Shown here piece by piece: positions 12,201 to 58,011 of a stretch of 64,000 nucleotides of DNA; position 1 is the stretch's first letter; each line of letters opens with the position of its first letter. The stretch lies in contig NC_088871.1 of assembly GCF_032884065.1 (NCBI RefSeq), forward strand, positions 16,736,472 to 16,800,471. The letters are read 5' to 3'. The position numbers were made by a program, and so were the translations under genes. The notes under the pieces are model-generated. The model had not been told where the DNA came from. It made no database searches and saw only the letters and a list, made by a program, of their open reading frames with translations. The stretch is from Artemia franciscana (taxonomy: Eukaryota > Arthropoda > Branchiopoda > Anostraca > Artemiidae).

Positions 12201-15200
12201 CGACACTTGGTAAAGGTAAGGGACGCAACACTAGACTATGATTCAATGATATGGCATCACATAATGGTGTGTCCTCATCAAAGTTCATATTTGTTGTGGC
12301 ATCAATAATGAAACAGGTCTTGCTTTTGTCATGTTTTTTTACCATTAAAATTTTTCAATCCTTTTCATTTTATTTCTCCTCTTTATTTTCTGTTGTACTT
12401 ATTAAATCAGGTATAGGAGTTCTCCATCCCTGCAATTGGTCCGAAAAACTCTATCCATCTAAAATAAACTGCTCCATTAACAATATTCCACAAAATAATT
12501 TGTGTGGGGTTGACAAAGCCCCCCAAAGCCTGGGGGTAAGCGTTGTAAGTTATGCCCTAGGGGCGAATAAGGTTTTTACGGAAGGGGTGGTCGTATAAAC
12601 TACGGAGGGGGCTCAAATGATTAGAAATTGAAATCTATAGTTCTCCTTTTAAGAGTCAACTTATACATCTTGACTATCTTAGTTTTATGACTATCTACCA
12701 TAGTTCTTCTGTCCTAGGAATAACGCATGGACGGATATTAGACAGACTTATCTATTAACAAATGAACTAACATCATTTTTATACAATCCTACTAATATGG
12801 AGGTTAATGCAAGATTTGTCACTCACTCAATCGGACTATCTTTCTTGGGCTTTTCTACAATTAGCCATGGCTTTATGCCCACAACTATTCAATTTTAATT
12901 TAAAATCAATACCAACTTATTAACGATGTTTTACTCCAAAAATCATGGGAACAGACCACTAGCCCTCCCTCCATAGCCCAGCCCCCCGCAAAAATAACAA
13001 CTTATTAACATTAGGTTATTCCAAAAATCAGGGGAGCTCAACCCTGGACCTCTCTTCATGGCCCAACCCCCTTCCCCCCAAAAAAGACAACTTACTAACG
13101 ACATTTTTTCCAAAACATGGGAGCTAACCCCTGGCCCTACCTTCATGGATCGATCCCCCCCGAAAAATATTAACAATATTTTATTCCAAAAAGCCTGGGA
13201 GCTCACTCCTGGCCCTTTCTCTATGGCCGATCCCCCCCCCCCCCCCAGTAAAAATAAAACTTATCATATTCCAAAAACAATGGAGTTGACTAACGATGAA
13301 CTTATTAGCAATATTTTATTCCAAAAATCATTGGAGCTTACCCTTGGCTCTCCCTTCATGGATCGACCCCCTCCCCCCCCCGAAAAAAAAATGTGAAGGT
13401 TGAGCACAGCCAATCCTATCCACCCCCTAGCATCAAACCTAACCCTCTAATATCCTCCCAATAGCAGCGCATGTGTATATATGTGTGTGTAGGTCCCTTT
13501 GCTTCATATACTGAGTGTATATGGTTATCATTTATACAAGTTTGTTCAGTTCATTGTCAATTATTCTTTAAGGTGATATAATGAAGACTGCCTTCAAATA
13601 ATGAAGGCAGCTAGGCTACAATGTTTCTACTGAAATTCATTATGATTTATTTGAATATGATGTAGAAATAGGATTCATTTGTATCGAAATATAGCCACCA
13701 ATCAAACTTCTTCTGAGTCAACAAATGAAATAGTCTAACGACTCTCTTTTTCGGAGTTATTTTTCTCGTTTCATTCAACCTTGCACGAATAAATCAAGTA
13801 TGATTTATCAGAGGCACGTATTCATGTTGCCTATAGTAAAGGTCATAAGGCTTCAACGTTTTGTTATTATTGATTGAAAAAAAATGCACAAAAAGAAGTT
13901 TTCAAAGAAAATTAAAGAGCCATATTGAACTCAGGACCAGCAGAAATTAATTCCCATTAAGGTTAAAACTCAAAACAACCAGAAATTACTGTTATAATTT
14001 AAATGAAACCCAAACGAACAGAAATGAAAATTAACGATCCTAGCAAACATAAAGATAACAGGTGCAAATATAAATGAATGAATAAATTTTAAATACCTTC
14101 AATATTGGGCTACGATCCCCCCCCCAGAGGTACTTCATATGCAACGGGTGGTGTTATAGCCTTCGGAGAGGGCTCATTCAATTGGAAATCAGAAGTTTTG
14201 GTACCATTTTTAAGAGTCAAATGTGATTGGAGAGCACATGCCCTTCCCCCTTCCACGCTATCTTTTCCCCAAATACATGCGATCAAAATTCTGAGATAGG
14301 CATCATGTCCAAAATAGTCCAAAGGTACAATAATTAAAATAATTATGCCTCGGGGGTTGACAAAACTGTTAGAACTTGCACTGCCCCCAGAGCAAAGGCT
14401 GTAAGTTATGCAAGCTGACATATTAGTTTGCATATTAAATTCCAGTTTTACTCATTTTAAAATTTATTTGTTCAGTTTTATAATACTACCTGTTATATGT
14501 TTGTTTTCTATGATTATTTATTTAATTTCTGTTCGTTTTGGATTCCATTTATTATTTAACAGTTATTATTATTTAAGAATTAACGACGCTTCTTGACTAC
14601 TATGGTCCCTGCGTCGGCCCTGCAGTGCATTCCTGCAGCGTGATCCGATCTCTGGGTCCCGTATTACGAAGCTAAGGTTTTAAGTTTGAATTTCAATGGG
14701 TGTTTGTATCTGCTGATCTTAACTTTGATATGGCCATTACTTCTTTTTTGAAAAACTTCTTTTCGGAAAGTTTTTTTTTTAATTAATCAATAAAAATGGA
14801 CGACCGACTAGTGACTGATCTTTATATAAGAAAATCCTTATATAAGCCAAAATTCTGATTGATCCTTATAAAAGCAAATATTATAATATGCTAATTACCA
14901 GCATTAATAAATAAATATGTAAACAAAATCGAAATATAATAAAACAATTTATTTTATATAATAAAATAAAAGTGAATAAATCTGCTTTATGAAATAGGAA
15001 AACAATTTGTTGGTGATTTATGTGCAATTCACGAAAGCCAAACACGAAAAAAGAAAAGGTTTTACCAGCGTTAGTGTATCCAACCACAGATATAACAGGA
15101 ATTTGTCGCTTTTCTCGATTGATCCGCACTCTTTGTCGTTGAGCCCTTAATGTTTCCAGTTGATCTTTGATTCTCCGTTCTCTGGCTGACAAAAGTCTTT

Positions 15201-18200
15201 TTCTAGTTTCAAAAAAAGTTTCCCCAGCACCCCCAATGGCGGATGTGGAGCCACCTAATCTGTCTCCACCTACAACTCCATCTTGAATATCCCGTAGTAA
15301 AGACCTGAAATGTAACAACACTATACAAGATATGGACACCATGATTTCAGCGGTAGCTGCAACGTAGTTAAGGTCAAAGCAGAGCCCATAGCAACCAAAA
15401 ATTAAAAACAAGTTTTGAAATCCTAACAAGTAAGAAAAAATGGCTATTTCGAGCTGGTTCAGGAATGGTAACTATTATCTTAATTAGTCTTAATAGTAAT
15501 GGTTTTTGAAACAAATTTAAGAGAATTGCCAAAAATAGCTTGAAACCTCTAAAGAGTGGGGTCAGATCAAAAAAATTGTTACATCTACGTATTTTTATAA
15601 TTACCAAAGCACAATATTTACATTCAAATGAATTTTTTGGATAAAAAACTGCATCTTCGTGTACAAAATGATGAATGACGTCATAATCACAGGTTGCAAC
15701 CATAAATGACGTTCTAGTAAAACCACAACGATAAAGTCAAATGCATCTTGGTCTTTACTATATACAGTTAAGAAAAAAACAAAAGCTTTTTCTTGTGTAC
15801 GATTTATAGTACAGAATAGTGCAATATTGCGGCTAAAGGGGGGAGGAGGGGAGGAGAGGAAGCAGCACTGTCTTTGTGTTGAAATATTGTTTTTAATGAA
15901 AGATGTTAATTTGTAAATGTTGAAGCTTAAATGCTTCTTCTCTCTTTGAATGAGCCCTTCGGAGAGGGCTCATTCAATTGGAAATCAGAAGTTTTGGTAC
16001 CCTTTTTAAGAGTCAAATGTGATTGGAGAGCACATGCCTCTCCAATCTAGGAATTAAATTCCTAGGAATTAAATTCCTAGTTTAACAATAAACCATCATA
16101 AAATGATTCTTAAGAGCTCATTTGATAGATAATTGGTTTTTTAAGCAACAAAGCACAATAAACCAAAACTGCGACTTCATATATAAGATGAAACGGATAT
16201 TTTAACAAGAGATGATATAATACACATATCTTTTGAATTCCCAACAGTGTTGTCATATTCCTCGTACTATTTTTCATGTTCGGCCAGGATAAAGGGAATA
16301 ACACTAAATAATGCATAATTTATTGACAAAAAGTTTTTTTGCATCCCTGACTAAGTGTTGATTCAATACCTTGCTCTTCAAGCTAAAGTTCAATCACTTT
16401 CCGAATATCCTAATCGAATTAAACGGCCCTTGTTTTTCAGGAGCCGTTCTTATAAAATTATCAATCATGCTTTAGCGTAAAGAGCGAGGTATTGAAAAAA
16501 AGAGGAAGGTAAACCCTTCATATATGGAATAATTTCTGTCAGTTCTGAGTTTTAATGTTGCCCGTTTCTGTTGAAAAAGCTTTTTTTTAATTTAATTCCT
16601 GATCGTATTTCAAATAATGCCGGTAAACCTGTCTTGCCCTCTAAGAAAAATTCCTTTCCCTCATGGGAAGCTCCTCCGTAAAAAGTTCTTTCCGCATAAA
16701 ATACACCCCTCCCCCTGTAAAATTCCCTCCAGAAAATTCCATACTAGCTGAAAATCACCCCAGAATATTGTCACGCATAAAATGGAGTTGCCAAAGAGAA
16801 AGTAAGACAATTAAAACGAACTTTGTATATGAATTCTGGAAAATTTCCCCCGAGTGAAATTTCCTCTGGAAAGGTCACCCCCAGAAACTTCCCTCCGAAC
16901 GGAAAATTCAACCTTTAGAAAATACATATCCCCCACAAAATATCTCCCTTCAAAAAATATCTGTATGCTTCTCAATAACCATTACTATGTGTAAAACAAT
17001 GGGCAAAGATCATTTGGCTTGTAGCCCTTCCCCAGAGGTTGTGGGGTTCAAGTCATCCTCAAAAGACATAGTTATTAGATCTTTCAACTACGCTCAATAA
17101 AATGGCTATCTCAAATGCTTATCAGACGAATTTGGAGAAAAGGGTATGGGAGGAGGGCTAGCTTCCTACAAATATTTTGGGCCACTTAAAAAGGGCACTA
17201 CAACTTTTTATTTTCGATCAAATGAGCTCTCTCCTGATGTTCTAGGATCACTGATTCAATACGATCACCCTAAAAGGAAAAAATAGAAAAAAAACACCCC
17301 TCCATGATTTTTCTTCTAGCAATAAATGCAAAATTCCTCATTTTTGTATATAGGAGCTTGAATTTTAAAGTAGGGTTCTCTAATACGCTGAATCCGATCA
17401 TTTGGTTTTCATTAAGATTTATTTAGGGGGTGTTTCCCCCCTAATCTAAAAACTAGGTAAATTTTCTCAGGCTTGTAGTCTTTGATGGGTATGACTAAAC
17501 TTAATGAAACTTACATACTTGGAGTCAGTATAATATCCTGATTCTTTCCATGACCAGAAACATAAGTGTTTAAAATCTGAGGTATTATTGCGAAATGAAC
17601 TCGATAAAATTGTCATCGAACTCAGCAAAAGGGTTCTAGGTTAATGTTCTAATGACTTTAGTTTGATTTTGCAACAGCTATTCAATCTATTTCCAGTTTG
17701 AGATTCTTTTCACGAATAATTAATGTCTCCCTGTGAGCCCTTCTATCAACTTTACTTGCAAATATTTACGTTAAATATTAAACAGTTCGTGGTAACAAAC
17801 TGTAGTAAGGAGCGACCCGGCTCAATAGTAACCAAAACTCTAAAAAATGTAATTTTGATACCAATAGTTACATCAAAAGAATCGCATTTTAATGCTGATT
17901 TTAAATATATAAGTTTCATCAAGATCAGTTATACCCATCAAAAGTTACGAGCCTGAGAAAATTTGCCTCATTTTAGAAAATAGGGGAGAAACACCCCCTA
18001 AAAGTCATACAATCTTAACGAAAATCACACCATCAGATTCAGCATATTATAGAACCATATTGTAGAAGTTTCAAGCTCCTATCTACAAAAATGTGGAATT
18101 TCGCATTTTTTGCCAAAATACAGATCACGGATGCGAGTTTATTTGTTTTTTTTACTTCTTTTTTTCAGGGATTATCATATCGACTAAGTGGTCCTAGAAT

Positions 18201-21200
18201 GTCACGAGAGGGCTCCTTCTAACGGAAATTAAAAGTTCTAGTGCCATTTTAAGTGACCGGAAAAATTGGAGGGCACCTAGGCCCCCTCCCACGCTCATTT
18301 TTCCCAAACGACACCGGATAAAAATTCTGAGACAGCCATTTTATTCACCATAGTCGAAAAACCTAATAACTATGTCTTTAGGGACGACTTACTCCCCCGC
18401 AGTCCCCGTGGGAGGGACTGCAAGTTACAAACGTTGACCTGTGTTTGCATATAGTAATGGTTACTGGGAAGTGTACAGACGTTTTCAGGGGGATTTATTT
18501 TGGATTAGGGGGGAGGGGGTTACGTGGGAGGATATTTCCATGGAGGAACTTCTCATGGGGGGAGAATTTCAATGAAGTGGGCGCATGATTTTCTAGCATT
18601 ATTTGAAAAAAACAATGAAAAAATAAATATGAAGAGTTTTTTCTACTGAAAGTAAGGAGTAGCATTAAAAGTTTCTTACTGTTTTAAAAAGTAGAGTTAA
18701 GAGAAAGAGTCAAACTTTAGCATAAAGAGCGGGGCGTTGATGAGGAAGCAGCCCCTTTCATATACGGAGTAATTTCTGTTCGTTTTAAGTTTTAATGTTG
18801 CTCCTTACTTTCATTTAAAAAAACTTTGTTTTTTTATTTTATTTCGAGAAGTTGCCATTCAAGCAAGGAAGAATCGCCATATGAAGCTGATTAAGGAATG
18901 GCAACTTTTATTTCGATTAATCTTTATGGTAAAAAATTTTTTTTACGAAAACAATTTTTATGCAAATTTCTAAAAGTAGCCTGAAACCCCTCAGAAGTGG
19001 TGTCGGATAAAAATGGAATCTTTAGAATCGTCATAAAAGAAAGCCTAATCTAGGAGAATACAATCCCCTACCTTGAGCAATAAGGGAAACAATCTTTCCG
19101 CACAGGAAGCAGCGATATCTTCTTTTTTCGTTTCCGCTAGAGGGAGACTGAAACATCATAAAAGGATGTTTAAGGGCTCATTTTAAAAGCCCAAGAGTAG
19201 ATGTCACGAATGAGTCGCCTACTGACGCGTCCAACAACTACAAAAAACATCGCCGCATTGCAAAGTAATACTCTGTGTTCTAATGAGAGGTAGCGCGTTG
19301 ATAAGGGTGCCGATGAAGAGGTAGCATGCATGTAACAAGTATTGGCACTTAATCACTAACCCAACGAATATGAAAACTGATTAGAGGAGACCTCATAGAA
19401 TTTGCCAGGAAAAACTAAATGAGCGCATAAAAATAATTAATTTACAAAACTTATAAATTGAAAATCCTCACCTCTCCCTGCAAAGACTCCCGTGACGAAA
19501 AAAAAAAGATTCTCTCTATTGCAAAGATGCATATAAGCATCCAGTCCCTTCTCTAACTTTTTTTCTGTTATTATGGGGCCATAAAGATTACACCTGCCAA
19601 TGAAACTGTTTCATGAATCTAATTTTGAACTACCTTCTTTGATCACTAATAATAACAACTCTAAAAATAATAATAAATTAGTCGATTAATCTACCTCCGA
19701 AAAAACAGCCAAAAACAGCGTTTTGGAAAGACATTCCGTTCTAGTGAGAGGTGGCACGATCCTAAGGGTGTCGACAAAAACATAGTAAGCCGGTAACAGA
19801 CAAATTACCTTAACCTTTGTTGTCCCTTCTTTAATAATGATACTATTTTAGTTCAAAAGTACAGGAAGTAAGCCATGCCCCGAGCAACTAAACATAAAAG
19901 AAAATAACTAAAGTAATTGTAAAAATATTAAACATTAAACAATATATTAAACAAAATAATTAATATTAAATAAAAAATAAATAAAATTAATATAAATAAT
20001 TATAAATAAAAAATTAAATAAAAATATTAAATAAAATATTAAACAAATAACCTTAAGTAAGGCACCTCAGCTAACGCAACTTGAAGTTTGGCCTCTTTCG
20101 TTTGAGCTCTTTCTTTGAAAATATGCAACACCAATGAAAAGCGATCGAATACCGGAACTTTGAAAGCTTGTTCCAATTCCCTTTAAAACATATAAAAGCA
20201 TATTATTCAGATTGTTCTTCAAATAATTCTTACTGGCCTAGCAAATCTCTATTCCAAAAAGATGGAAAAAGAAAGAAATTGAAGGAAACTGTGCATAAGC
20301 AACTTGCATCCAAACAATAATAAAACAGAGAAACAACGTTTTCGAATCGAGGAAGTTACTGTCAACCTTCAATGTATATAATTATGCCGAATTCAATTAC
20401 TTCAATATTTTTGCGCTGGATTCAAGCATTTTATAAAAACTTGCCCATTATTAAAGTTATCTTTCCTCGAAAATTTGACAATTTGGGCAATACTTTTAAG
20501 GAAGATTTTGCAATTATTTACGCTAAATTGAGGAATACATCGATATTTCTCTTAGCACATCTATTTTTGTACAGTAGTTCGATTTTTAGAAGTTAAAATT
20601 GAAAAACTGATGTTTATAAAAACAAAACAAAGTCGATCCACACAACATGAGCGAAAACTCTGATTGATATTTCTGAATTGGACGTGAAGAACCTCAATAG
20701 AATTTAGTCGTAATAGGTCAGAAGTCGAATTTTAGTCGTAATAGGTCAGAAGTCGAATTTTAGTCGTAATAGGTCAAGCTCGTTTATTGAATACTGGATG
20801 TCTTAAGCAATTAAATAAAAAAAAATTTGACTAAAAGTTAGGAGCAATATTAAAACTTAAAACAAACAAAAATTATCACGTATATGAGGGGGTTTCTCCC
20901 TCCTCGACACCTCGCTCTTTACGCTAAAGTTATTTAGTACTTTTAAATAGCTTCTTGTAGTTTTAATTAAACGAACCTTGTGTTTCAAGAGTCGTTCTTG
21001 AAGAAGTTGGCCAAAACTCAAACTTTAGCGTAAAGAGTGAGGTGCTAAGGAGGGGAGAATCTGCTCATATACATAATGATTTCTATTTGTTTAAAGTTTT
21101 AATGTTGCTCCTTACTTTCAGTTGAAAAACTTGTTTCTATAATTTATTTCTGATCGTTTTTCAAATAACGCCAGGGAATCTGGCACCTCCACCGAAAAAT

Positions 21201-30200: not shown

Positions 30201-33200
30201 AAATGTACTGCAAGTATTCAACAGCTTACCAAAGTAAATTCATTCATTATACTAAATTAGGATAAGGATAAAGATCCTTGAGATGCATTACTGGCACATG
30301 GGGTGTCGAATCGAAGTTTCAGTTGCTGGACCTTTTTTACAGGTCGCCCAACCTTGCTGAGGCGAAGATTGAACCGCGGGCCCGGCGATGCCAAGCAGAG
30401 CATCAATGCACTGTGCTACAACACGGTTAGAACTATTAAGAGATCAAAAAGAAGGCTTACTTTCTTTGGACACCGGTCAACTGTTCAATGCTGACAAAAA
30501 CTGCAGTAACTGACAAATTTCTTCTTATTGTTTTCTTCAGTTCCTCCAAGTTCCCTGTACCAAACAAAAGTCTCCTTTTAAACGTCTCTAGTGGAACGAC
30601 TATCTAAAAAAAAGAATACTACATGTACTCTCAGCTTCCAGTTAACTAGGCAGCTGGCTCTCACCACACAACAACAATGTCCCGTTAATAAATTATGTAT
30701 TGCAGATGACCCTTTTACACTGACATGTTCAATTGAAAACAAATTTATCACATAGGCCATTTCGCAGCAACAACAAAGGAAAAACTATATACAAATATGT
30801 ACAGAAACAATGTAGCACATGAGGCAAACACAGTAGCAGAATACGCACCAAAACAATATTAGGCACACAGCCTTCATGGTAAATAATAGATATTCACTAG
30901 AAAAAATGCTTGCCCTTAGTAGGAGTTGAACCCATTGCCTCCCATTAACTGGAAGACAACTATGACCACTGAGTTACAATGGCTTGCTAACATATTCTTT
31001 ATTGCAAATTAAGCTTTTAATTTAACTTTGCTATCGATAACAAGAAATTTCGGAATAAATTATACACAAGAAATTTTTGGTGATAAATGGAAAAATGCAT
31101 AAAAGTATATCAAAATTTGGCATTACAGATTCAACAGGCTATGTCTAATGACCCTAAAATACACAATAAGGCCTGCAATCTTCACAATGAATTATGGAAA
31201 TTTGATGTTGAGCTACAGCAGTCACCGACAAATTTTCTAAAGCAATCAGTACTTTAATGTCATTACTGATCATATCAATAAATTAAAAATAAATATATTA
31301 AACAACAAACTTTTAACAGCTCTGAAAAACCACATTCAAACAAGAGCTAAGGGCTCATATGGTACTTGTGACGAGGCAAGAAGAGCTAAGAGCCAAGAGC
31401 TCATATCGTATGAGCTCTAACAAAATTCTAAGAATCAATAGATTGATTTAAAAGGAAAATCAGAGGCTTAATGCCAGTCAGGATTTAAAACAAGAGCTCT
31501 GAGTCACGATGTCCTTCTAAATATCAAAATTCATAAAGATCCGATCACCCACTCGTAAGTTATAAATACCTAATTTTTCCTCTCCATTTAGCCCCCCCCC
31601 AGATGGTCGAATCTGGGAAAACGACTTTATCAAGTCAATTTGTGTAGCTTCCTGACACGCCTACCGATTTTCATCGTCCTAGCACGTCCAGAAGCACCAA
31701 ACTCGCCAAATCACTGAACCCCTCCCCCCAACTCCCCCAAAGAGAGCGAATCCGGTACGGTTACGTCAATCACGTATCAGGAACATTTGCTTACTCTATC
31801 CACCAAACTTCATCCCGGTTACTCCACTCCAAGTGTTTTCCAAGATTTCCCCTTCCAACTCCCCCCAATGTCAAAAGATCTGGTCAAGATTTGAAATAAG
31901 AGCTCTGAGACATGAATTCCTTCTAAATATCAAATTTCATTAAGATCCGACCACCTATTCGTAAGATAAAAATACCCCAATTTTCATGTTTTCCAAGAAT
32001 TCCTGTTTCCCCCTCCAATACCCCCAATGTCACAGGATCTGGTCGGAATTTAAAATTAGAGCTTTAAAGCACAAAATCTTTCTAAATATCAAATTTCATT
32101 AAGATCTGGTAACCTTTTCGTAAGTTACAAATACCTCATTTTTCCAAATTACCCCTTCCCCCCCAACTCCACCAATGAGAGCAGATCCGGTCCGGTTATG
32201 TCAGTCACGTATTTTAGACAGGTTTTTATTCTTCCCATCCAGTTTCATCCTGATCTCTCCGCTTTAAGTATTTTCTAAGATTTCCAGTCCCCCCCCCCCC
32301 CCCCAATGACGCTGGATCCGGTTGAGATTAAAATAAGAGATCTGAGTTACGAGGTCCTTCTAAATATGAAGTTTCATGGAGATCCGATCACACCTTCGTA
32401 AGTTAAAAATACGTCATTTTTTCTAATTTTTCAGAGTTACCCCCCCCCCAATAGAGCGAATCCGTTCCAATTATATAAATCACGTATCTAAGACTTCTGC
32501 TTATTTTTCCCACCAAGTTACATCCCGATCCCTCCAATCTAAGCGTTTTCCATGATATTAGTTTCCCCCACCGCAAACTCCCCCCCCCAATGTCACCAGA
32601 TCCGGTCTTGATTTAAAATAAGAGCTTTGAGACACGGTATCCTTCTAAATATCAAATTTCATTGAGATCTGATCACCTGTTCGTAAGTTAAAAATACCTA
32701 ATTTTTTCTAATATTTCAGAATTACCCCCCCCCCCCCCTCCAACTACCCCAAAGAGAGCAGATCCGTTCCGGTTATGTCAATCATGTATCTAGGACTTGT
32801 GCTTATTTTTCCCACCGATCCCTCCACTCTAAGTGTTTTCCAAGATTTTAGGTTTCCCCCTCCCAACTCCCCCCCAATGTCACCAGATCTGGTCGGGATC
32901 TAAAATAACAGCTGCCATAAAAAAAGGGTTTTTAAAGTAACAAAGGGAGAACGGACAGAAAGGATTTCGATAAAAATATCGATATTCTCTTTAGATTGCA
33001 GACCTAATTGGCATATTTCTTATCTCATAGTTGGGTTCACAAAAAAAAATTGTAAGAAAAACACTCACCCCATCAACAACTTTCCACTTCGATAGGGATT
33101 CAACAAGTCCTTTAGATTCTTCTAGCATTAATTCTGGCTTTGTATTTTGTTTTTTTCCTCTTCCCCATTTTATATATGGCTGCAAAACTAGAATTTGGTG

Positions 33201-33410
33201 TCCACTGTCTCCATGCATATAAAGCCTTTTTCTCAAGTCAATTACCTCATCTTCTTCTTTTTCTTCATCAATATCCTTTGTTAAACTACTTGAAACGTGA
33301 AAACACTTAAAAGACCAAATTTTTAAAGTTGTATGACATTTGAGAACAGCTTGTTTTTGGGTAAGTTTTGCGAAACTTCTATAGGTAAGATACTTGATAA
33401 TTGAGTTCAT
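57..33410 (-). CDS. GTPBP6: GTPBP6-like mitochondrial HflX-family GTPase (whole gene, 8 coding exons)
   Basis: Spliced coding sequence on the minus strand: 33410..33069, 30603..30461, 20180..20052, 15304..15066, 7239..7031, 5513..5261, 3383..3284, 201..57; 1560 nt, 519 aa plus stop. All introns are GT-AG and the phases join without a break. Homologues bind GTP and the large ribosomal subunit, acting in late mitochondrial ribosome assembly and recycling. Visible parts: a basic, hydroxylated N-terminus (about 1-45) that looks like a mitochondrial presequence; the HflX N-terminal domain (about 70-200, with VLQPYIKWGRGKK, FGTGNLEEL, VPVFDRF, ERAQTKEAKLQVALAE); a charged coiled-coil linker (about 235-272); the G domain with G1 GYTNAGKT (280-287), G3 DTVG (328-331), G4 NKVD (397-400); and a C-terminal tail ending KLRKLFP plus nine residues. 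Length is close to human GTPBP6 (516 aa). The open frame continues upstream of the ATG from a GTG at 33428, but 33410 is the first ATG. No lesion is seen; probably functional. Confidence 0.93.
885..1550 (-). mobile_element. Helitron fragment, internally deleted
   Basis: Reading on the minus strand, a short basic N-terminal-repeat remnant (CGSKRKGQ, next to 1550) runs directly into the helicase region: SSIRSKNYIALALASSGIAA, then CNISKSSGMGEVLQQC, DECTMAHKKSLEALD, GSTLILLAGDFRQTLP and ADEMNACLKN. It is clearly the same family as the element at 21792-27420, but everything between the N-terminus and Walker A is gone. Walker B also reads VRDE instead of IWDE. Frames change within the fragment, so it is dead. 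Confidence 0.85.
1605..3060 (+). repeat. Modular foldback repeat, copy 1 (body plus two palindromic modules)
   Basis: Body module 1605-2200 (shared with 10250-10880, 18010-18640 and, inverted, 47285-47880) followed by a degenerate palindrome (2215-2460), a linker (2460-2755) and a strong palindrome (2765-3055). In the last one, arms of about 125 bp that include ctttacgctaaag-type sequence are inverted copies of each other. No coding frame. Confidence 0.8.
3284..3383 (-). CDS. GTPBP6: GTPBP6 coding exon 7 (C-terminal domain)
   Basis: Encodes (G)LIDITSSLQDKILSSTGR, then IVKLFRVPSGSEAYQ. It matches the human pattern of a LxxxLdaAVLkATGRqiltLRVrlaG segment. Acceptor tcttctag, donor gtgagt. Too short for an ORF search, but phases fit both neighbours. 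Confidence 0.88.
3384..5260 (-). other. GTPBP6 intron 6
   Basis: 1.9 kb. No gene, clear mobile element or tandem array recognised. Short open frames here are not supported by motifs. Confidence 0.6.
5261..5513 (-). CDS. GTPBP6: GTPBP6 coding exon 6 (G4 and G5 region)
   Basis: Starts DAIIHVRDISHPEAELQ after acceptor tttttag. Contains the G4 motif as VANKVDKLVGVD and ends with PVCATRGIG, the G5-like region. Between them is an extra acidic helix (NLSKEELEEKIEKL). Donor gtattt, phase 1. Confidence 0.94.
5514..7030 (-). other. GTPBP6 intron 5
   Basis: 1.5 kb of AT-rich sequence with a short (TA)n run near 5641. Nothing else recognised. Confidence 0.6.
7031..7239 (-). CDS. GTPBP6: GTPBP6 coding exon 5 (rest of P-loop, switch regions)
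   Basis: Encodes (G)KTSLIRSLTGDDKITPENR, LFATLDVTAHAGYLP (G2 region), IYVDTVGFLTDLP (G3 DxxG) and LIEAFSATLEDALNA. Acceptor tttatag, donor gtaagc, phase 0 at the end. No frame lesion. Confidence 0.94.
7815..8540 (+). repeat. Foldback module plus C-rich tail module
   Basis: Inverted arms at 7815-7930 and 8018-8140 (tagctgaaagtaag against a reversed copy ending ctccttcgtttaag), followed at 8160-8540 by a tail of short phrases such as aaaattccc and cctccccat. The same arm-then-tail order occurs at 16330-16960 and 20812-21300. Confidence 0.7.
9030..9292 (+). pseudogene. hAT transposase C-terminal (dimerisation) remnant
   Basis: Frame ends with SFFPNMHVLQKILSTLPIS, then TTERSFSTLRRVKTYLRNSM and NGLISANIYRD. 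This is the characteristic hAT C-terminal signature (LPvStatAERSFStLrrIKtYLRstM...GLallnIhrD). Only the last 85 or so residues are preserved; no upstream catalytic domain or terminal inverted repeats were found. It lies inside intron 4 of GTPBP6 in the opposite orientation. Confidence 0.85.
10042..11710 (+). repeat. Modular foldback repeat, copy 2 (most complete)
   Basis: Starts with a hairpin (10042-10061, stem cagttcg/cgaactg) followed by gtagcaaggagcgacccggc. The body runs to about 10880, then palindrome 1 (10890-11125), a linker and palindrome 2 (11430-11710, arms about 120 bp with gttccctcct / aggagggaac near the centre). It has the same order of modules as copy 1, so this is one composite unit of about 1.67 kb. 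No protein is encoded. Confidence 0.82.
12490..12670 (+). repeat. Dispersed repeat fragment (ggctca family)
   Basis: Shares ggggttgacaaa, gtaagttatgcc and the ggagggggctca...ttttaagagtcaa segment with 14105-14420 and 15950-16050. Probably pieces of one further non-coding repeat. Confidence 0.55.
12925..13390 (+). repeat. Minisatellite, period about 86 bp
   Basis: Degenerate units begin with ttattccaaaaatca at about 12930, 13016, 13102, 13181 and 13267, with a shortened unit at 13316. Each unit also has a cctggccct...tcatgg phrase and a C-run. Overlapping open frames on both strands are by-products of the repeat. Confidence 0.8.
14105..14420 (+). repeat. Dispersed repeat fragment (ggctca family)
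   Basis: Contains ttcggagagggctcattcaa, nearly identical to 15955-16050, and a C-run near 14118. Overlapping open frames are not supported as genes. Confidence 0.55.
15066..15304 (-). CDS. GTPBP6: GTPBP6 coding exon 4 (linker and start of P-loop)
   Basis: Starts after acceptor tttcag and encodes SLLRDIQDGVVGGDRLGG, the GGxGE segment (IGGAGETFFETRKRLL), an Arg/Lys/Glu-rich linker likely to be helical, and PVISVVGYTNA. The donor gtaaaa splits the last P-loop glycine codon (G plus GT). The open frame runs on into the intron, but that extension is intron sequence. Confidence 0.93.
15950..16050 (+). repeat. Dispersed repeat fragment (ggctca family)
   Basis: About 100 bp almost identical to 14160-14245, including ggaaatcagaagttttggta, so the two are recent or conserved copies of one repeat. 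Confidence 0.6.
16330..17520. repeat. Mosaic of foldback, tail and inverted body modules
   Basis: A palindrome remnant (16330-16600, with gctttagcgtaaagagcgag), the C-rich tail module (16600-16960), then the body module in reverse orientation (16960-17520, with gacatagttattag and gatcaccc). The body here is inverted relative to copies 1 and 2. Confidence 0.7.
17783..18840 (+). repeat. Modular foldback repeat, copy 3
   Basis: Begins with the same hairpin head (17783-17802, one mismatch in the stem) and gtaaggagcgacccgg. The body is at 17810-18640, followed by one foldback module whose left arm is largely lost (18640-18840). Copies 2 and 3 agree on the 5' end, which supports a true element boundary at the hairpin. 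Confidence 0.8.
20052..20180 (-). CDS. GTPBP6: GTPBP6 coding exon 3 (HflX N-domain core)
   Basis: Encodes ELEQAFKVPVFDRFSLVLHI and then FKERAQTKEAKLQVALAEVPYL, the most recognisable part of the HflX N-terminal domain. The acceptor is ttttaaag. The donor is the weak gttatt, but the phase-2 junction to exon 4 (AG plus G, Arg) reads PYLRSLLRD exactly as the family requires. Confidence 0.92.
20706..20780 (+). repeat. 28-bp tandem repeat, about 2.6 units
   Basis: The unit tagtcgtaataggtcagaag plus tcgaattt is repeated exactly, then partly a third time. It abuts the left side of the foldback copy at 20812. Confidence 0.85.
20812..21300 (+). repeat. Foldback module plus tail module
   Basis: Inverted arms at 20825-20935 and 21020-21136 (acgctaaagtt and aactttagcgt near the centre), followed by a short C-rich tail module to about 21300. 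Confidence 0.7.
21792..21885 (-). other. Helitron 3' terminal hairpin and nested CTAG ends
   Basis: A GC stem (gggggcgc / gcgccccc, 21867-21885) is followed on the minus strand by CTAG at 21858, again at 21844, and finally at 21792, where it is followed by TTAA. Between them ggggtagtta is iterated (21800-21842). Hairpin then CTRR is the known 3' end of Helitrons. Confidence 0.8.
21993..22080 (-). repeat. Third partial copy of the Helitron coding end
   Basis: The minus strand reads WTDNGKAKNVVYSQFLRS, matching the last 18 residues of both upstream copies, about 100 bp beyond the second stop. It is separated from copy two by a (GATA)n run at 22142-22164. Confidence 0.8.
22174..22675 (-). pseudogene. 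Tandem second copy of the Helitron helicase C-terminus
   Basis: Starts immediately after the first copy's stop with EPNEAVNYPSEFLNSID and repeats the last 165 or so residues to YSQVLRS. Differences from the first copy (FTNVQLYVASLRVG instead of FSHGQLYVACSRVG) show it came from a diverged relative, not a very recent duplication. It has no start of its own and is not part of the main protein. Confidence 0.88.
22683..23675 (-). CDS. Helitron helicase C-terminal part (same frame, after the TGA)
   Basis: Directly continues the frame of the 1208-aa part: LKDLRGKSKPFGSTLILLAG, DFRQTLPIIPRST, the LKIGVPIILLRNI motif, FAITINKAQGQSLEKCGIDL (motif V) and GQLYVACSRVG (motif VI), 330 aa ending LRS. With the upstream part the full protein would be about 1539 aa, normal for a Helitron. 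There is no proper ATG after the TGA (the first codon is TTG), so this is not a separate gene. Confidence 0.9.
   Translation of the reverse strand: MKDLRGKSKPFGSTLILLAGDFRQTLPIIPRSTPADEMNACLKNSNLWAHVKTLKLTTNMRVRLQNDDSGQTFSDQLLAMGNGKLPVDSISGRIQLPADFCNLVTSKNELIEKVFPNILKNYKNNKWLSERAILAPKNIDVHEINNIVLTKIQDQAVLYKSVDTVLEPNEAVNYPSEFLNSIDLSGFPPHVLQLKIGVPIILLRNINPPKLCNGTRLVVKKTMENLIEATILTGPFEGEAVLIPRIPMIPTDLPFQFKRLQFPIRLAFAITINKAQGQSLEKCGIDLNTDCFSHGQLYVACSRVGKPDNLFICSENWTVKNVVYSQVLRS
23676..27302 (-). CDS. Helitron Rep-helicase, N-terminal 1208 aa (up to in-frame TGA)
   Basis: The protein cuts and joins single strands and unwinds DNA for rolling-circle transposition. In order: about six to seven tandem basic repeats of roughly 23 aa (RLAAKRESEKRRRAEE, residues 15-150); a Cys cluster CPYC...GMCC (182-199); the Helitron-like N domain (about 440-600); Rep motif DLFITFTCNQSW (543-554); HUH motif GLPHAHILIWL (611-621); the two-tyrosine motif YICKY (754-758); the helicase with Walker A APGGTGKT (1111-1118); and Walker B IIWDE (1190-1194). 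ATG at 27302 or 27287. It ends at TGA (23676-23678) right after SLEALDQ, in the middle of the helicase; the frame stays open beyond it. This single stop would remove helicase motifs III to VI unless it is read through. Confidence 0.93.
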   Translation of the reverse strand: MLKFIMTDEDAQRVYAKKLAADRESQKRKRAEELPEQRESRLAAKRESEKRRRAEELLEQRRSRLAAKRESEKRRRAEESKDQQGNRLEADRERKNRKHAEELPEQRRSRLAAKRESEKRRRAEESKDQQGNRLAADRESKKRKRAEESEQSESYRLAFRYNPVDDYSLSRCVQIGTMSKICPYCKALKFNGETMGMCCASGKVKLPLLAAPPEPLKTFLTGTTSESKRFLSKIRQYNSCFQMTSFGAQIENPDQFMSTFKVKGQIYHKAGSLLPFSGENHKFLQLYFISDRNSELNARCEISPNVERTIVSQLQHLFHENNKLVRLFKTAIDLMPTDTHKIVISADKTPPGQHVRRYNAPTIDEVAIVMVGDQFLPRDIILHKRNAQLLRIAETHRCYDALQYPIIFWDGADGYHFNIKLMNPATNKEMNKKCSAMHYYSYRLMIRQDEENYILKCRELFHQFMVDMYVKIESERLLYIRLNQTKLRSEQYIHLRDAVINDGNTTNVGRLTILPSSYVGSPRHMHEYAQDAIAYVRLYGRPDLFITFTCNQSWDEILQLLLQGQSAVHRHDITARVFRQKLKSLINYLVKHEVFGSVRCWMYSVEWQKRGLPHAHILIWLHKKITSNEIDDVISAEIPDKNVDKGLHDIIVKNMIHGPCGALNENSPCMAKGRCTKQYPRLLVPKTITGNDGYPQYRRRSTEDGGKTAIIKKRNGTTIEVDNQWVVPYSPLLSKTFNAHINVEYYNSVKAIKYICKYVNKGSDMAVFGLQSEIKDFDEIVEYQAGRYISSNEAVWRILSFPIHERSPAVVHLAVHLQNGQRVYFTETNVQQRVLNPPDTTLTAFFSLCKNDSFAKKLLYTEVPSYYTWNTKNKVFERRKQGKSVDGQPTIFKDTTIGRLYTVHPNQHECFFLRLLLVNVPGPTSFEYLRTVNGTIHDTYRSACQALNLLENDQHWDNCINDACETSTPSQIRALFGIILTTCSPSAPTDLWEKYKSKMSEDILHRKQLETSDMTFDFTPEIYNYTLVVIEDFCISMANKPLQGLGMPSPNHIAAVSTCVELDREQSYSTSDLLSYVQNNISKLTSEQKDIYDTIMHCVDNNVGEIFFLDAPGGTGKTFVIKLILASIRSKNDIALAIVSSGIAATLLPGGRTAHSALKLPLNLHSTETPTCNISKSSGMGKVLQQCRLIIWDECTMAHKKSLEALDQ
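27430..28800 (-). mobile_element. Penelope-like retroelement, 5'-truncated
   Basis: Minus-strand frame (28800 to 27725) begins at the reverse transcriptase catalytic motif (SRYMDDVISLW) and continues ENKLPFLDVLI, FTIYRKPTQKNRYLHFNS and HPPQVKRAVV, a classic Penelope-like sequence. The C-terminal part has a GIY-YIG-type endonuclease core (DCGKYYVGRTHQNLEKRLQQ, then H). The 5' half of the reverse transcriptase is missing. Its 3' flank (27500-27545) holds a phrase reading ggccgtcttcagcac, common in these elements. It sits directly downstream of an RTE-like LINE fragment, which it probably entered. Confidence 0.9.
28800..30085 (-). mobile_element. RTE-like LINE reverse transcriptase fragment
   Basis: Minus-strand pieces in order: GRWAGHFQNVL (near 29840), a palm region reading LSFIDYEQAFDSVDRRAIVK (near 29310), KSGVKQSCVLSPFIWIILMD, the catalytic FLDLDYADDLSILDD (near 29015) and LRLGISEDEKVTLGNEKID. 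At least three frame changes or stops; no endonuclease domain. The clade assignment (RTE-like) is tentative. A related piece lies at 37640-38345. Confidence 0.85.
30362..30425 (-). repeat. tRNA-like segment (SINE head or tRNA relic)
   Basis: The minus strand has an A-box-like tgtagcacagtgc (30408-30420) and a B-box ggttcaatcttc (30364-30375) at the proper spacing. No cloverleaf acceptor stem pairs well, so this is more likely the tRNA-derived head of a SINE than a working tRNA. It lies 36 nt past the donor site of GTPBP6 exon 2. Confidence 0.5.
30461..30603 (-). CDS. GTPBP6: GTPBP6 coding exon 2 (HflX N-domain)
   Basis: Found by hand; it is too short for an ORF search. Preceded by a T-rich acceptor (ttttttag) and followed by donor gtaagc. 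It enters in phase 0 and leaves in phase 2. Encodes IVVPLETFKRRLLFGTG, then NLEELKK and TAVFVSIEQLTGVQRK, the family's FGxGxLxEL and xVFVxxxxL motifs. The split Lys codon (AA plus G) joins exon 3 to give QRKELEQAF, as in homologues. Confidence 0.9.
30911..30986 (-). repeat. tRNA-like segment (SINE head or tRNA relic)
   Basis: The minus strand shows an A-box-like tgtaactcagtgg (30966-30978) and a perfect B-box ggttcaactcc (30922-30932). The two ends do not pair as an acceptor stem, so a functional tRNA is unlikely. Confidence 0.5.
31480..32920 (+). repeat. Degenerate tandem repeat, period about 285 bp
   Basis: The phrase ccttctaaatatcaaa and its flanks (aagagctctgag before, cgtaagttaaaaatac after) recur at about 31488, 31891, 32050, 32327, 32611 and 32899. 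Typical spacing is 277-288; the first interval is expanded to 403 and one is contracted to 159. C-runs (8 to 16 C) recur inside the units. No coding potential. Confidence 0.8.
33069..33410 (-). CDS. GTPBP6: GTPBP6 coding exon 1 (presequence and start of HflX N-domain)
   Basis: 114 codons, ending in phase 0 at the strong donor gtgagt. It encodes the likely mitochondrial presequence, an acidic stretch (KDIDEEKEEDE) and the conserved VLQPYIKWGRGKK and PELMLEESKGLVESL segments. It lies 57 nt downstream of the TMEM141 stop codon and in the same frame. A candidate acceptor (catttag) sits at 33428-33429, so a non-coding 5' exon is possible. Confidence 0.9.
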
Positions 33411-33467
33411 TATTCCTACTATCTTCACTAAATGATTTAAAACAGTTTTTTTTTCACAAGGATATCT

Positions 33468-33700
33468 CTAAAGGCTTGGTTTTTCCAGAGATATTTGCTT
33501 TTCTTCTTTTTGAAGAGGATTTAAATATGTATGTTTATTTTCTGTTGCCATCCAAGCAGCCTGACAGGATTGTGACCTTAAAGCTGTTACTTTATAGCCT
33601 GATACAACACCAATTGCAGCAGAAACAAGGGCATGAAATTTGGGATCGTAGGGAAGCCTGTGTCGAAACAAATGCTGAAATATCCAGGTTCCAGAAAAAA
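33468..33700 (-). CDS. TMEM141: TMEM141 last coding exon
   Basis: Acceptor gttttcag before 33700; encodes FSGTWIFQHLFRHRLPYD through to EKPSL and TAG. If the transcript continues past the stop, this exon runs without interruption into GTPBP6 exon 1, whose donor is at 33068. Confidence 0.86.
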
Positions 33701-36700
33701 CTGAAAACGAAAAATAACTTTGATATAATCAATTCTTTGCTTCATTTACTGCTTTCTAAATATATTTAAAAAAGCATCAAGTTTTAGTACTTTAGATCAA
33801 CTTGTTCTAGTTATTTTTTTTTCTGTGAAGATGTACTATGACATATTTGCTAGCAACGTGTACCTCTACTGCTAGTAATTCAGTGTGCAAGAATTAGTGC
33901 AAGTTTTAAAACAAAAGCAGATTGTCTGTAATGTATGCCGAGCTAAATGTCATAATCATGGCATTAGATTTCCTCATGGTTAATGAATATATGAATGTTA
34001 ATATTAAAAATATTATAATATATTCTGACTCTTTGTCAAGCCTTGAGCTGCTTTCTTCAGCTTCTCAATATAAGATGGATATTGACACGTTTCTTTGTCT
34101 TAGGATTATTGATATTCTCGCTTCAAAAGGTATTTTAACTCATCTCCAGTATATTCCAAGCCACTCGGGTAAAATAGGTAACCATAAGGCAGATGAAATA
34201 GCAAAAAATGCTTTAAATATTGACCAGCCAAGTGGGAGACCAATCCCCATTAGAGATATTTATCGCTGGAGACTTACAGAGGTACTGATAAATAATAAGA
34301 ATCCAACCCTATCTCCTTTCCCCAGTAAGCACCTTTCCAAGATTTACCATAGAATTCGGTCAGGTTCAAATGGGCTAAATTTTCAAGCATTTTCATATCA
34401 GATTCCTAATTCAGGTGGTGAAGTTCCCTCCTCCCCCCTTTGCAGGTCATGTAATCTTAATAATGAAACAATAGATCATTGCCTATTTGAATGTAATATG
34501 CTGACGTCTGCACAGTATACCCTGCAATGTAAAATGTTAGAATGCTTCAAACGCCACAAAATTCCACTAACAGCCAAGAATCTTGCTGACCATACTTGCA
34601 CACAGACCACAGAGCTCAATATATATTCTCTTATAATTCAGCTGCTAGCATGAAAAGATATACTACAAGAAATCTGAGCAGATACAAATTATATAAGACA
34701 AACCAGCTCCATAGCTCTGTCCATCTCACAGAGTGAGTCAAAAGGAAAAGGGCTGAATAGTATTGACTGAAAAGCCCCCGTCTGCTGAAAAAGAAGAAGA
34801 TTGTCCAAGAGTGTATCAGCAATATCTCAGGAACAACTTAGGTTATTAAATTGAAACTTTCAGGAAATGTTGAATAAACGAAAAAAACTATCTGCAAGCT
34901 ACTACTACTACAACTACTGCTACTATTATTACACATCTAGTACTACTACAACTACTAGTACTAAGACTGGTACTACTACGATTACCAGTACTATGACTAA
35001 TAATATAGTGACTATTCCTACTATGACGCTACTACAGCTACTTCTACAACTACTGATACTACAGCTATAACCACTATGGCTACGACTACTACAACTACTC
35101 CTACCACTACTAAAACTACTTATATTACAACTACATTACCTATAATCTAATGCGACAACTACAACTATGCCAACTAAAACTATGACTATTATAGCTACAA
35201 TTACAATGACTACTACTACAACTCTACTACCAATAAAACAACCAAATAAACCCCCAAAAACTATTTCAATTAAAAACTAACAGAAATTTAATTAAAAAAT
35301 TTTCTCCACAAAAGTAGCTTTTCAAAGAAAAGGAAAGAGCAATAGTAAGGTGAAGTCGAGCAGAAATAATATAAAATAGCAATTTAAGCGTAACGAACAT
35401 AAATCACTATTGACAAAGAGATGAAACCCAAAACAAACAGAAATTACAACAAATAATCAGATCAAATTTAAAACTGATAAAACAAACTACCACAAACAGG
35501 AGTAGGGCAAATGCGCCCTATGATTTTTAAATACCAGAACGTCATCTACACTTTACTGAAAACAAAAAACATTGTAGGCATTTCTTCTTTTATAATGTCA
35601 ATGAATCCACAATTGCTGAGAAACTCAGGAATGAATATCAGCATATATTAAACTCTCTCTCTCTCTACCAACTTTTTTAAAATCTCAGTCTTCACCTGTC
35701 TTTACAATCAAACCAAGTGATGATGTATCAATTCTCACTTATTACCAAGCAAGTGCCTGAAGATTGAAATACTGCATATGAGGATCTGGTTCACAAAAAA
35801 AGGCAGTAAGGCAAAAACTTAAAACCTGTCAACCTCACCTCAATTTTGCCCAGATACTTGAATATATTACTAAAGATGCCTTATTGACATCTCTTCCAGA
35901 TAAGTAGGTTTTCTTTGAGAGCAAACACAGACTCAACACTTCCAAGCTGGTTGAAATAAAAATCTTTAAGACTTAAAACTTTGTCGCATTGACGAAAGCT
36001 CCCTAGTCAGCCTTGTGTTACTTGACTTTCTCAAAGGATTTGACGAAGTTTCTCCACAAACCAATTCAGTGAGCCTAATCCCAATATTACCTTACCATAG
36101 AACCAAGATACTTTCAAATTCTTATGATGCGATAAATGGTCTCCCATTAGTGACTAAGATTAGACCAAAGTCAATCAGCAGATGAGGACAAAATCTTTGA
36201 TGTTGCTAATAAAATAACACTAAACATGAACTTAAACAATTCAACCCTGGTCCATAATGTGGCTTCTCTCATTTAACAGAGTCAAATGTCAACCCTATAT
36301 TGTGGAAGCAAAATCCTATGTACAGCTATAACTTCTTTGACTCCATGACTAGAAAAGCTTTTACAATAGCTCCACAAGATGAAGTAAGAGACAATGGAGT
36401 GATAGAAGACAGCATACTGAAGTTCTGACAGTAATCTTAAACATCAGAAAGGAGCAGAGTGAATAAAGCCCCAACAATCTTCATCAATTATATGAATCAC
36501 TGGCTAGGATCTATCAGAATTTTGGATCAGAATTATCAAGCCCCTTTTATTTTAGAGATATTCATAAAAAGACCAACCATTAAATGTGTTAGGTAGATAA
36601 ACTCCAAAATAAAATCCCGTTAGATGAGGCAATATGACACAAAAATAAGATAAATATCAACACACAAGTTAAGTTTTGCTTGAGAGACCAGTAAATATTT

Positions 36701-37462
36701 ACTATGAGACAATTCCAAAAATTGACAACTCCCTCCTGCACCAAAAGTGCCAAAAGGGAATTGTCTCATTTTTATCAAGTAAATAACCAAAATAAACTAT
36801 TGAAAACTGCAATAAGCCCTCAATCAATAGCTGGCTTTAAGCAGTGAATTAAAAAAGAATGAGACAATAGACCATGCAATTAGCAATAGGATACATACTT
36901 CTTCCAGTACTAGAAGTGGAAGTTATTGGCAACGCAGAATATCAACCAATCCAAAAGGAAACTTAGTTGCCACATGTGTAAGTTAAAGTAATGTTATTCA
37001 CGAATGATGCTTCAATGTAGGGAAGGGGGGGGGTAGTAAAAGCCAATATTTGGCTTATTATATCATGATACATTTAATAAAATAGCTTTAGTAAAGTGCC
37101 AATTGATCAAAAGTAAAAATCAGCAGTTCAAAACCAAAGATTGTTAAAGCCAGCTCTTGCACAAAATACACATAACTTAGAAGCAAATAATTGCTTTAAC
37201 AATTATTTTGAACATCAGATCAAAATTTAAAAAAAAAGTCAAACTGAGTTTATAATATATGCTATTTTTGGACTTCAAAACAGAGGAATGGTAAAGTTAG
37301 TCTATAAACATAGTAAATAATAATTAGAACAAAATTATGAAGTTTACCTATGGCACCAGCAGCAAGTCCAGAAAACAAGCTTCTTGACATACACTCAGTA
37401 TATGAACCAAAGCCAGGATAAATAGTTGAATACCTTTCTTTTAATTCTTTAACATCGTTCAT
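33468..37462 (-). CDS. TMEM141: TMEM141-like small membrane protein (2 coding exons)
   Basis: Coding exons 37462..37348 and 33700..33468 join in phase 1 (G plus TT, Val) to give 115 aa plus TAG; human TMEM141 is 108 aa. Matching features in order: a short polar N-terminus, YPGFGSYTECMSRSLFSG (human HPGLGEYAACQSHAFMKG), a first membrane helix (about 28-49), RHRLPYD, a second helix (about 60-76, ALVSAAIGVVSGY), then SQSCQAAW and a polar tail. No enzyme function is known for this family; human TMEM141 is reported at mitochondria. The 3.6-kb intron contains LINE remnants. The stop codon lies 57 nt before the GTPBP6 ATG, in frame, with no AATAAA between them. Start chosen at the ATG that aligns with insect and human N-termini. 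Confidence 0.88.
33922..34653 (+). mobile_element. Orphan LINE 3' end: RNase H and Cys/His tail
   Basis: One open frame of 243 aa starting in a RNase H fold (YAELNVIIMALDFL with the Glu, IIIYSDSLSSLELL with the Asp, YIPSHSGKIGNHKADEIAK with His and the final Asp) and ending with a CRSCNLNNETIDHCLFEC Cys/His tail typical of I-group LINEs. No reverse transcriptase precedes it, so it is a 5'-truncated insertion. The frame is unusually well kept for a dead piece. Confidence 0.85.
34899..35235 (+). repeat. Degenerate trinucleotide (ACT/CTA)n repeat
   Basis: About 340 bp dominated by act, cta and tac triplets with scattered substitutions. Open frames through it (runs of Thr or Tyr) are artefacts. 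Confidence 0.85.
35700..36950 (+). pseudogene. Decayed CR1-like LINE reverse transcriptase
   Basis: Scattered plus-strand matches in changing frames: VPEDWNTAYEDLVHKK, then PVNLTS, NTSKLVEIK, and a stretch resembling LLDFLKGFDEVSHK (near 36030), in the order of a CR1-like reverse transcriptase. Many stops; no open frame survives. Clade and right boundary are uncertain. Confidence 0.5.
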
Positions 37463-37489
37463 TATTTGATGCTTAGGAAGTTTTACAAC
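37348..37489 (-). CDS. TMEM141: TMEM141 exon with start codon
   Basis: Acceptor tttttttag precedes 37489, so 27 nt of 5' UTR on this exon imply at least one upstream non-coding exon that I cannot place. ATG at 37462; donor gtaaac after GGT GCC ATA G. Confidence 0.82.
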
Positions 37490-37639
37490 CTAAAAAAAGT
37501 TTGCAAAGAAATAGTAGTATAACATTAAGGTAAAATTAACCATGTTGAGTTTCATTTCTGATATGTGTCCTAAGGCAATCAGCATAGGCTACAGAAGAAT
37601 ATGGATCAAGTGGGAAGGTATGATTGTAAAAAACCTTGG

Positions 37640-41975: not shown

Positions 41976-42251
41976 AGCAATTATTACATTTGCAAAGAAT
42001 ATAAGAAAAGGCATCAAGTGGTATGTTCAGTTTATTAGTCAGTTATATGAACTGTCATAATTTTTTGATCATTTGTCATTTTTAAGATTTGTCATTTCTG
42101 ATTGTTCCAATCAGAACCCAATACCTAGACAAATTTGATAAAATTGAAGTTCAGGGCTGTAGAGTATTTTTAAGTAAAAATATGACTGTTAATATATTCA
42201 ATGTGTATAACCCTCAAGGTGATTCTCCTCTAAAGATTGATACACAGCAAA

Positions 42252-57500: not shown

Positions 57501-57647
57501 ATTTTTTGGTATATCTAATATGCTGCTATTATCCTCATTATCACTAACTACAATATTTTGGAAAACTGAATGAAACAAAAGAGAATCTCGCTCAAATTCT
57601 TTTAACCTTGATGATGGAATTCCATCACTATCTCTATCCATTATCAA
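54553..57647 (-). pseudogene. LINE ORF2 (endonuclease, reverse transcriptase), disrupted
   Basis: Endonuclease in 57647-56328: ISFWNCRGWRTARDTIDTFL, LCETFLDEFS, GGLGVLIKSYIPAR, AVIYRSPS, LVMGDFNIDL, SLIDNIFS, SDHCILMADF. Reverse transcriptase in 56254-55667 (ARVIPLYKQGDKSDVSNYRP, KYQFGFRANRSTEQA, VATVFYDI) and 55635-55150 (DIGVPQGSVLGPLLFLTYIN, HAVLFADDTAIT, SYRYLGVFLD). The C-terminal region, 55095-54553, has SLITSYLNYCSVVY. Breaks: a frameshift near 56330, a frameshift in a T-run near 55678, and a TGA at about 55150 where a Trp is expected after DPLL. The FADDT and VPQGSVLGPLLF signatures place it with CR1/L2/Jockey rather than RTE. Confidence 0.9.
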
Positions 57648-58011
57648 ATATTACCACCATGTCAAGAATAACCACACCACGACCCATGCGCCCAACAAAC
57701 AAAAATAAAAGGTAACTCACACAGAAACAACTAAGAAAAGAAAAGAGAAATGTCTTCATTCTAAGACAAATTCTTTCAATATTCTACCGCTATTCATAAA
57801 GACCCCTGTGTGCTTCAGAAAAAGCATTAGAAAAACATAATAAAAATAGATGACTAAAGAGAAAGAATCGTAATAAATATATAGAGCAACAAAAATTAGT
57901 GAGAAGATAACTAAAAAACAAATAAATACGAGACAAAACATGATTAAACGGTTCCTACTTGTATATTTTAAAACATACTAACAGGGCGCTTTACTATTAG
58001 ACGATATGATT

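Follow-up and report, generated by a model that had tools for sequence, protein, structure and literature searches.

The window analysed here is a stretch of 64,000 nt of the Artemia franciscana genome, and positions are counted along it unless another contig is named. Two genes lie one behind the other on its minus strand, TMEM141, which encodes a small membrane protein, and then GTPBP6, which encodes a mitochondrial ribosome factor (Table 1). TMEM141 is made up of two coding exons that together give a complete protein of 115 residues. The protein matches PF15110 over positions 2-91 of the 91 in the profile (E 1.2e-26, 93.5 bits with a cut-off of 27), and this whole-profile match supports the gene name chosen in the initial annotation. 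The intron between the two exons carries an RNase H frame on the plus strand (33910-34650; PF00075, E 7.3e-6, just over the cut-off) that is probably a LINE fragment, and about 200 nt of the intron are left between this frame and the last exon. No relative of TMEM141 was seen in the viral contigs that were scanned with it.

The model of GTPBP6 consists of exons 1-6, without the C-terminal exon(s) and the stop codon, and encodes 438 residues. A C-terminal piece, judged by eye, may lie at 272-60 on the minus strand. Three domains were found in order and all over the cut-off, PF13167 (GTP-bdg_N) at 95-183, PF16360 (GTP-bdg_M) at 186-268 and PF01926 (MMR_HSR1) at 276-398. When exons 1-6 were compared with solved relatives, human GTPBP6 was the best match (E 1.6e-99) with 336.8 bits versus 159.4 bits for the best other HflX chain, and thus the mitochondrial and not the bacterial member is the closest. 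The HflX-type domains and the closeness to the human protein uphold the name GTPBP6 as well. Genome-wide there are 17 HflX-family matches. Four of these are at the GTPBP6 locus, including the only three with E < 1e-7, and the remaining 13 cover profile positions 177-239 alone, around the GTPase motif. A query made of the two spliced genes gave five matches in the genome, every one an exon of the locus itself; a retrocopy was not found.

Intron 2 of GTPBP6 houses a large Helitron frame (Helitron_like_N, PIF1) at 23679-27329 and a 380-aa frame with a GIY-YIG domain at 27728-28867, both on the minus strand; the latter presumably comes from a Penelope-like element. LINE-type endonuclease and reverse transcriptase frames are found at 42234-44597 on the plus strand and at 55670-57650 on the minus strand.

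The first 45 residues of GTPBP6 contain 8 Lys or Arg residues and no Asp or Glu, a composition that suggests a mitochondrial-type leader. A mitochondrial role has been published for human GTPBP6 (PMC7736812), and TMEM141 appears as a table row in a review on mitochondria-derived vesicles (PMC10152607). The proposal in the initial annotation that both products are plausibly mitochondrial is thus reasonable for GTPBP6 and weak for TMEM141. No publication naming both genes was found among the CC0, CC BY and CC BY-SA papers in PMC.

Table 1. Positions of the features of the TMEM141-GTPBP6 locus in the window. A slash marks a splice boundary.
Feature	Position	Strand	Remarks
TMEM141 5' splice acceptor	37489..37491 (AG 37491-37490, exon base 37489)	minus	TTTGCAAACTTTTTTTAG/GTT, matrix score 9.4
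TMEM141 coding exon 1	37348..37462	minus	ATG at 37462; donor G/GTAAAC
TMEM141 intron	33701..37347	minus	3,647 nt
TMEM141 last coding exon	33468..33700	minus	PF15110 E 9e-14 for the exon's stop-to-stop frame alone; acceptor score 5.8 with this site excluded from the matrix
AATAAA in TMEM141 coding sequence	33534..33539	minus	63 nt before the stop codon
TMEM141-GTPBP6 gap	33411..33467	minus	57 nt, in frame
Initiator-like TCATTT, possible GTPBP6 start site	33430..33435 (A+1 at 33433)	minus	about 9% chance in 57 nt
Acceptor-like TTTAG, weak	33427..33429 (AG 33429-33428)	minus	score 3.8, 17 nt before the GTPBP6 ATG
GTPBP6 exon 1	33069..33410	minus	114 codons, then GTGAGT; human GTPBP6 7of2_C E 1.4e-4 for the exon alone
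First AATAAA past the TMEM141 stop (intron 1 of GTPBP6)	32225..32230	minus	
GTPBP6 exon 2	30461..30603	minus	
GTPBP6 exon 3	20052..20180	minus	TIGR03156 positions 81-124
GTPBP6 exon 4	15066..15304	minus	TIGR03156 positions 136-203
GTPBP6 exon 5	7031..7239	minus	TIGR03156 positions 201-269
GTPBP6 exon 6	5261..5513	minus	TIGR03156 positions 269-316

The junction and its transcript signals

The TAG that ends TMEM141 (33470-33468) and the ATG of GTPBP6 (33410) are separated by 57 nt, or 19 codons, on the same strand. The two genes have a common frame, and the gap is AT-rich and contains no in-frame stop; the stop-to-stop frames at the junction run from 33728 to 33468 and then from 33467 to 32991. 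The spacing, the one frame and the single TAG between the genes had been described in the initial annotation, and its coordinates hold. It had also described a continuous frame from 33700 to 33069. The end at 33069 and the single TAG stand, but the open frame has to be read from 33698, since the first two bases of the last TMEM141 exon belong to a split codon; a frame-1 translation of the minus strand from 33700 contains many stops.

The chance that such a gap is both in frame and open is about 0.033 when the gap is shuffled (1/3 x 0.099) and 0.109 when all 57-mers of the minus strand are taken (1/3 x 0.326). A shared frame that arises by chance in 3-11% of cases is unremarkable and is weak evidence, and the shared frame with its single TAG is probably a coincidence. 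It had been suggested that read-through of the TAG could produce a TMEM141-GTPBP6 fusion protein, and the frame is indeed open across the gap save for that codon. However, an open frame is found this often by chance, and in a fusion the basic leader of GTPBP6 would become internal, buried behind a membrane protein. The TAG is followed by an A, and we know of no leaky stop context of this kind. The fusion is extremely improbable and was rejected, given the 3-11% chance of a shared frame.

A hairpin over the TMEM141 stop (33456-33498, minus strand), with the stop codon in its stem, was also considered. The best of seven offsets was matched by 1.3% of 2,367 GC-matched 45-mers and by 4.1% of all 4,264. 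This was a post hoc candidate and was dropped; over the 121 nt surrounding the gap, folding is unremarkable (z -1.21).

The genome of A. franciscana is described as about 1.27 Gb long, with 21 chromosome-sized scaffolds and 26,923 genes (PMC11492255). With one gene per 47 kb and uniform placement, any given gene would have a junction of at most 57 nt with a probability of about 0.0012, which gives an expectation of about 33 such junctions in the whole genome before halving for same-strand pairs. Since some tens of tight junctions are expected, the spacing of TMEM141 and GTPBP6 is rare yet within chance.

Between 33760 and 32000 on the minus strand the only sense AATAAA are those at 33539, in the coding sequence of TMEM141, and at 32230, in intron 1 of GTPBP6, and there is no ATTAAA. 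The initial annotation was right that no AATAAA lies between the genes, and so a normal TMEM141 message probably contains GTPBP6 sequence. AAUAAA has been reported in only about half of copepod cDNAs (PMC4664967), and its absence is therefore weak evidence in a crustacean. Variant poly(A) signals past the TMEM141 stop include AATGAA (33411), AAGAAA (33265), TATAAA (33174) and AATACA (33146).

The view that coding sequence leaves no space for a promoter does not hold, as the GTPBP6 ATG is preceded, at a distance of 290 nt, by the end of the 3,647-nt TMEM141 intron. A promoter for GTPBP6 inside this intron is possible. The initiator consensus is TCAKTY, and the gap itself holds an initiator-like element (Table 1). 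It could be envisaged that there are two overlapping units that never give a dicistronic mRNA. TMEM141 would then be polyadenylated through a non-canonical signal in exon 1 of GTPBP6 or the AATAAA in its intron 1, and the promoter of GTPBP6 would be in the last exon or the intron of TMEM141. The variant signals in exon 1, the AATAAA at 32230 and the promoter space in the long intron are all consistent with this arrangement, which we consider quite unlikely.

Splice acceptors and spliced-leader trans-splicing

Splice acceptors were scored with a matrix built from the six acceptors of TMEM141 and GTPBP6 plus a generic prior from general knowledge. The acceptor found 27 nt ahead of the TMEM141 ATG is much stronger than the one in the gap (9.4 versus 3.8), and it suggests that TMEM141 probably has a 5' exon without coding sequence further upstream, or else an outron. 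The score of the gap acceptor compares with 2.2-9.3 for the six known acceptors when each was left out in turn. Among the 7,426 AG sites of the window, both strands counted, 12.9% reach or exceed it, and an acceptor as good as this one is held by 33% of the 57-nt windows on the minus strand and 36% of those on the plus strand. The TTTAG in the gap is no better than chance.

A shared promoter with alternative splicing has been considered, in which a non-coding 5' exon would join either 37489, for TMEM141, or the gap acceptor at 33427. The strong acceptor before the TMEM141 ATG and the acceptor-like TTTAG in the gap both fit such an exon, but the latter is equalled in a third of the windows on its own strand, and we find the scheme distinctly improbable.

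Another explanation is that Artemia uses spliced-leader trans-splicing and that TMEM141 and GTPBP6 would be one of its operons, whose polycistronic transcript is resolved by a leader trans-spliced to acceptors just before each ATG. To our knowledge, trans-splicing is not known in branchiopods. As in the spliced-leader operons of nematodes and others, the gap is short and an acceptor-like site precedes the second ATG; the sites are 27 nt (TMEM141) and 17 nt (GTPBP6) before the start codons. Trans-splicing is on record in copepods and amphipods, which favours such an operon, but operons are said to be unreported in these groups, which does not (PMC7986045).

Of 20 small-GTPase first exons, not all of them independent since some are paralogues whose upstream sequences are similar (L070, L087), 11 have a strong acceptor no more than 20 nt ahead of the ATG, versus 75 of 600 control windows, and this difference argues for a leader. 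The 20 first exons were taken from 38 stretches and their start codons were picked by eye. The other 18 stretches were left out for lack of the motif or of a clear start codon, or because the copy was retrocopy-like or uncertain, and further first-exon matches that resembled near-duplicates of the chosen ones were excluded from the set. However, ordinary 5'UTR introns account equally well for these acceptors, and the gap acceptor of GTPBP6 is weak.

A shallow look for a leader RNA gene with Rfam (gathering scores), covering a 5S stretch of 3.1 kb and five of 14 U2 stretches of 3.2 kb, gave only 5S, U1 and U2. In this respect, and in having a gap acceptor at chance level, the locus differs from spliced-leader operons. 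No clear common promoter motif was seen in the upstream regions of U1, U2 and U5 (three). Searches on Artemia trans-splicing and the Artemia genome returned nothing on trans-splicing in Artemia among titles and the starts of abstracts. A word search of the main text of an Artemia Iso-Seq paper (PMC8465105) gave no word beginning with fusion, polycistron, spliced leader or trans-splic.

The repeated RNA genes have features of their own. Several contigs carry tandem 5S rRNA genes with a unit length of about 8.2 kb, and a 5S-histone repeat is known for Artemia. Of the 12 5S loci, 7 have H2A and H2B motifs about 1.0-1.4 kb ahead of the 5S gene, one more has H3 motifs, and four are without these core-histone motifs. 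The spliceosomal RNAs U2 and U5 are in tandem arrays, with about 4.85 kb per unit on contig C16, and U1 is present in three of the five U2 stretches scanned.

Three intronless copies on one chromosome (L020, L021 and L022), which we take to be Rab11-like, have about 280 nt of sequence ahead of the ATG in common; the match of L020 has one internal TGA. That two intronless Rab11-like copies share some 280 nt and not a short leader argues against trans-splicing, although they may be copies of each other. We regard a spliced-leader operon at this locus as very improbable.

Comparison with known dicistronic pairs

FlyBase lists 159 dicistronic pairs in Drosophila, and in 45 of them both proteins apparently come from dicistronic transcripts only (PMC4528330). 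For fly loci whose transcripts are all polycistronic, stop-to-start distances of -34 to 319 nt are given, and the alternative messages of the 3' gene usually come from a downstream (or external) promoter (PMC4528330). The distance of 57 nt between TMEM141 and GTPBP6 falls inside this range. The two genes are also like the fly pairs in being on the same strand with a small upstream protein. They are unlike them in that TMEM141, with 115 aa, is outside the very small classes that are over-represented in the fly (PMC4528330), and in that the genome of Artemia is large and repeat-rich.

The two molybdopterin synthase 2 subunits are cited as a highly conserved dicistronic example (PMC4528330), and a MOCS2-type pair is present in the A. 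franciscana genome. In this pair a ThiS-family frame (PF02597, E 1.9e-6), by inference MoaD, is followed by MoaE (PF02391), with a gap of 184 nt in one copy (L095) and 174 nt in the other (L096). The copies are at 56.08 Mb and 56.29 Mb of contig C7, about 210 kb apart and on opposite strands. TMEM141 and GTPBP6 resemble the MOCS2 dicistron in being adjacent same-strand frames with a short gap. The products of MOCS2, however, are subunits of one enzyme, and we know of no link of this type between TMEM141 and GTPBP6.

Could the locus be an obligate dicistron, in which a single promoter ahead of TMEM141 gives a single mRNA and GTPBP6 is made by reinitiation or internal entry? A gap without AATAAA is consistent with a single message, and gaps of this size are within the range published for the polycistronic-only loci of the fly (PMC4528330). 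Five AUGs, including TMEM141's own, are met from the TMEM141 acceptor to the GTPBP6 AUG, and the first cistron has 115 codons. By general rules both reinitiation and leaky scanning would be inefficient in such a message, and the 121 nt around the gap show no unusual structure. An obligate dicistron is unlikely.

We favour with moderate confidence the explanation that TMEM141 and GTPBP6 form an overlapping head-to-tail pair, of a dicistronic kind that is familiar in Drosophila. By analogy with the fly gene pairs, their transcripts are probably shared or overlapping. The mechanism at the RNA level is read here from the sequence and may be as follows. The polymerase that transcribes TMEM141 would run on into GTPBP6, and TMEM141 messages would end within exon 1 or intron 1 of GTPBP6 or would be dicistronic with it. 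Most GTPBP6 protein would be translated from messages that have a 5' end of their own, which may lie inside the last exon of TMEM141, in the TMEM141 intron or in the gap. This explanation thus brings together two options of the initial annotation, a two-gene transcript and a GTPBP6 promoter within TMEM141. Upstream AUGs make downstream translation inefficient under the scanning rule, and because there are five of them a separate 5' end for GTPBP6 is favoured beside the read-through RNA. The single TAG in the shared frame would be a coincidence under this mechanism.

Because both genes share a frame, automatic annotation may fuse TMEM141 and GTPBP6 or trim one of them. Beyond the putative co-transcription and this caution for annotation, the arrangement is ordinary. 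If long reads confirm it, TMEM141 and GTPBP6 would be a compact co-transcribed pair that has persisted in a crustacean genome which is large and rich in repeats, and they would provide a clean locus for asking how the second protein is made.
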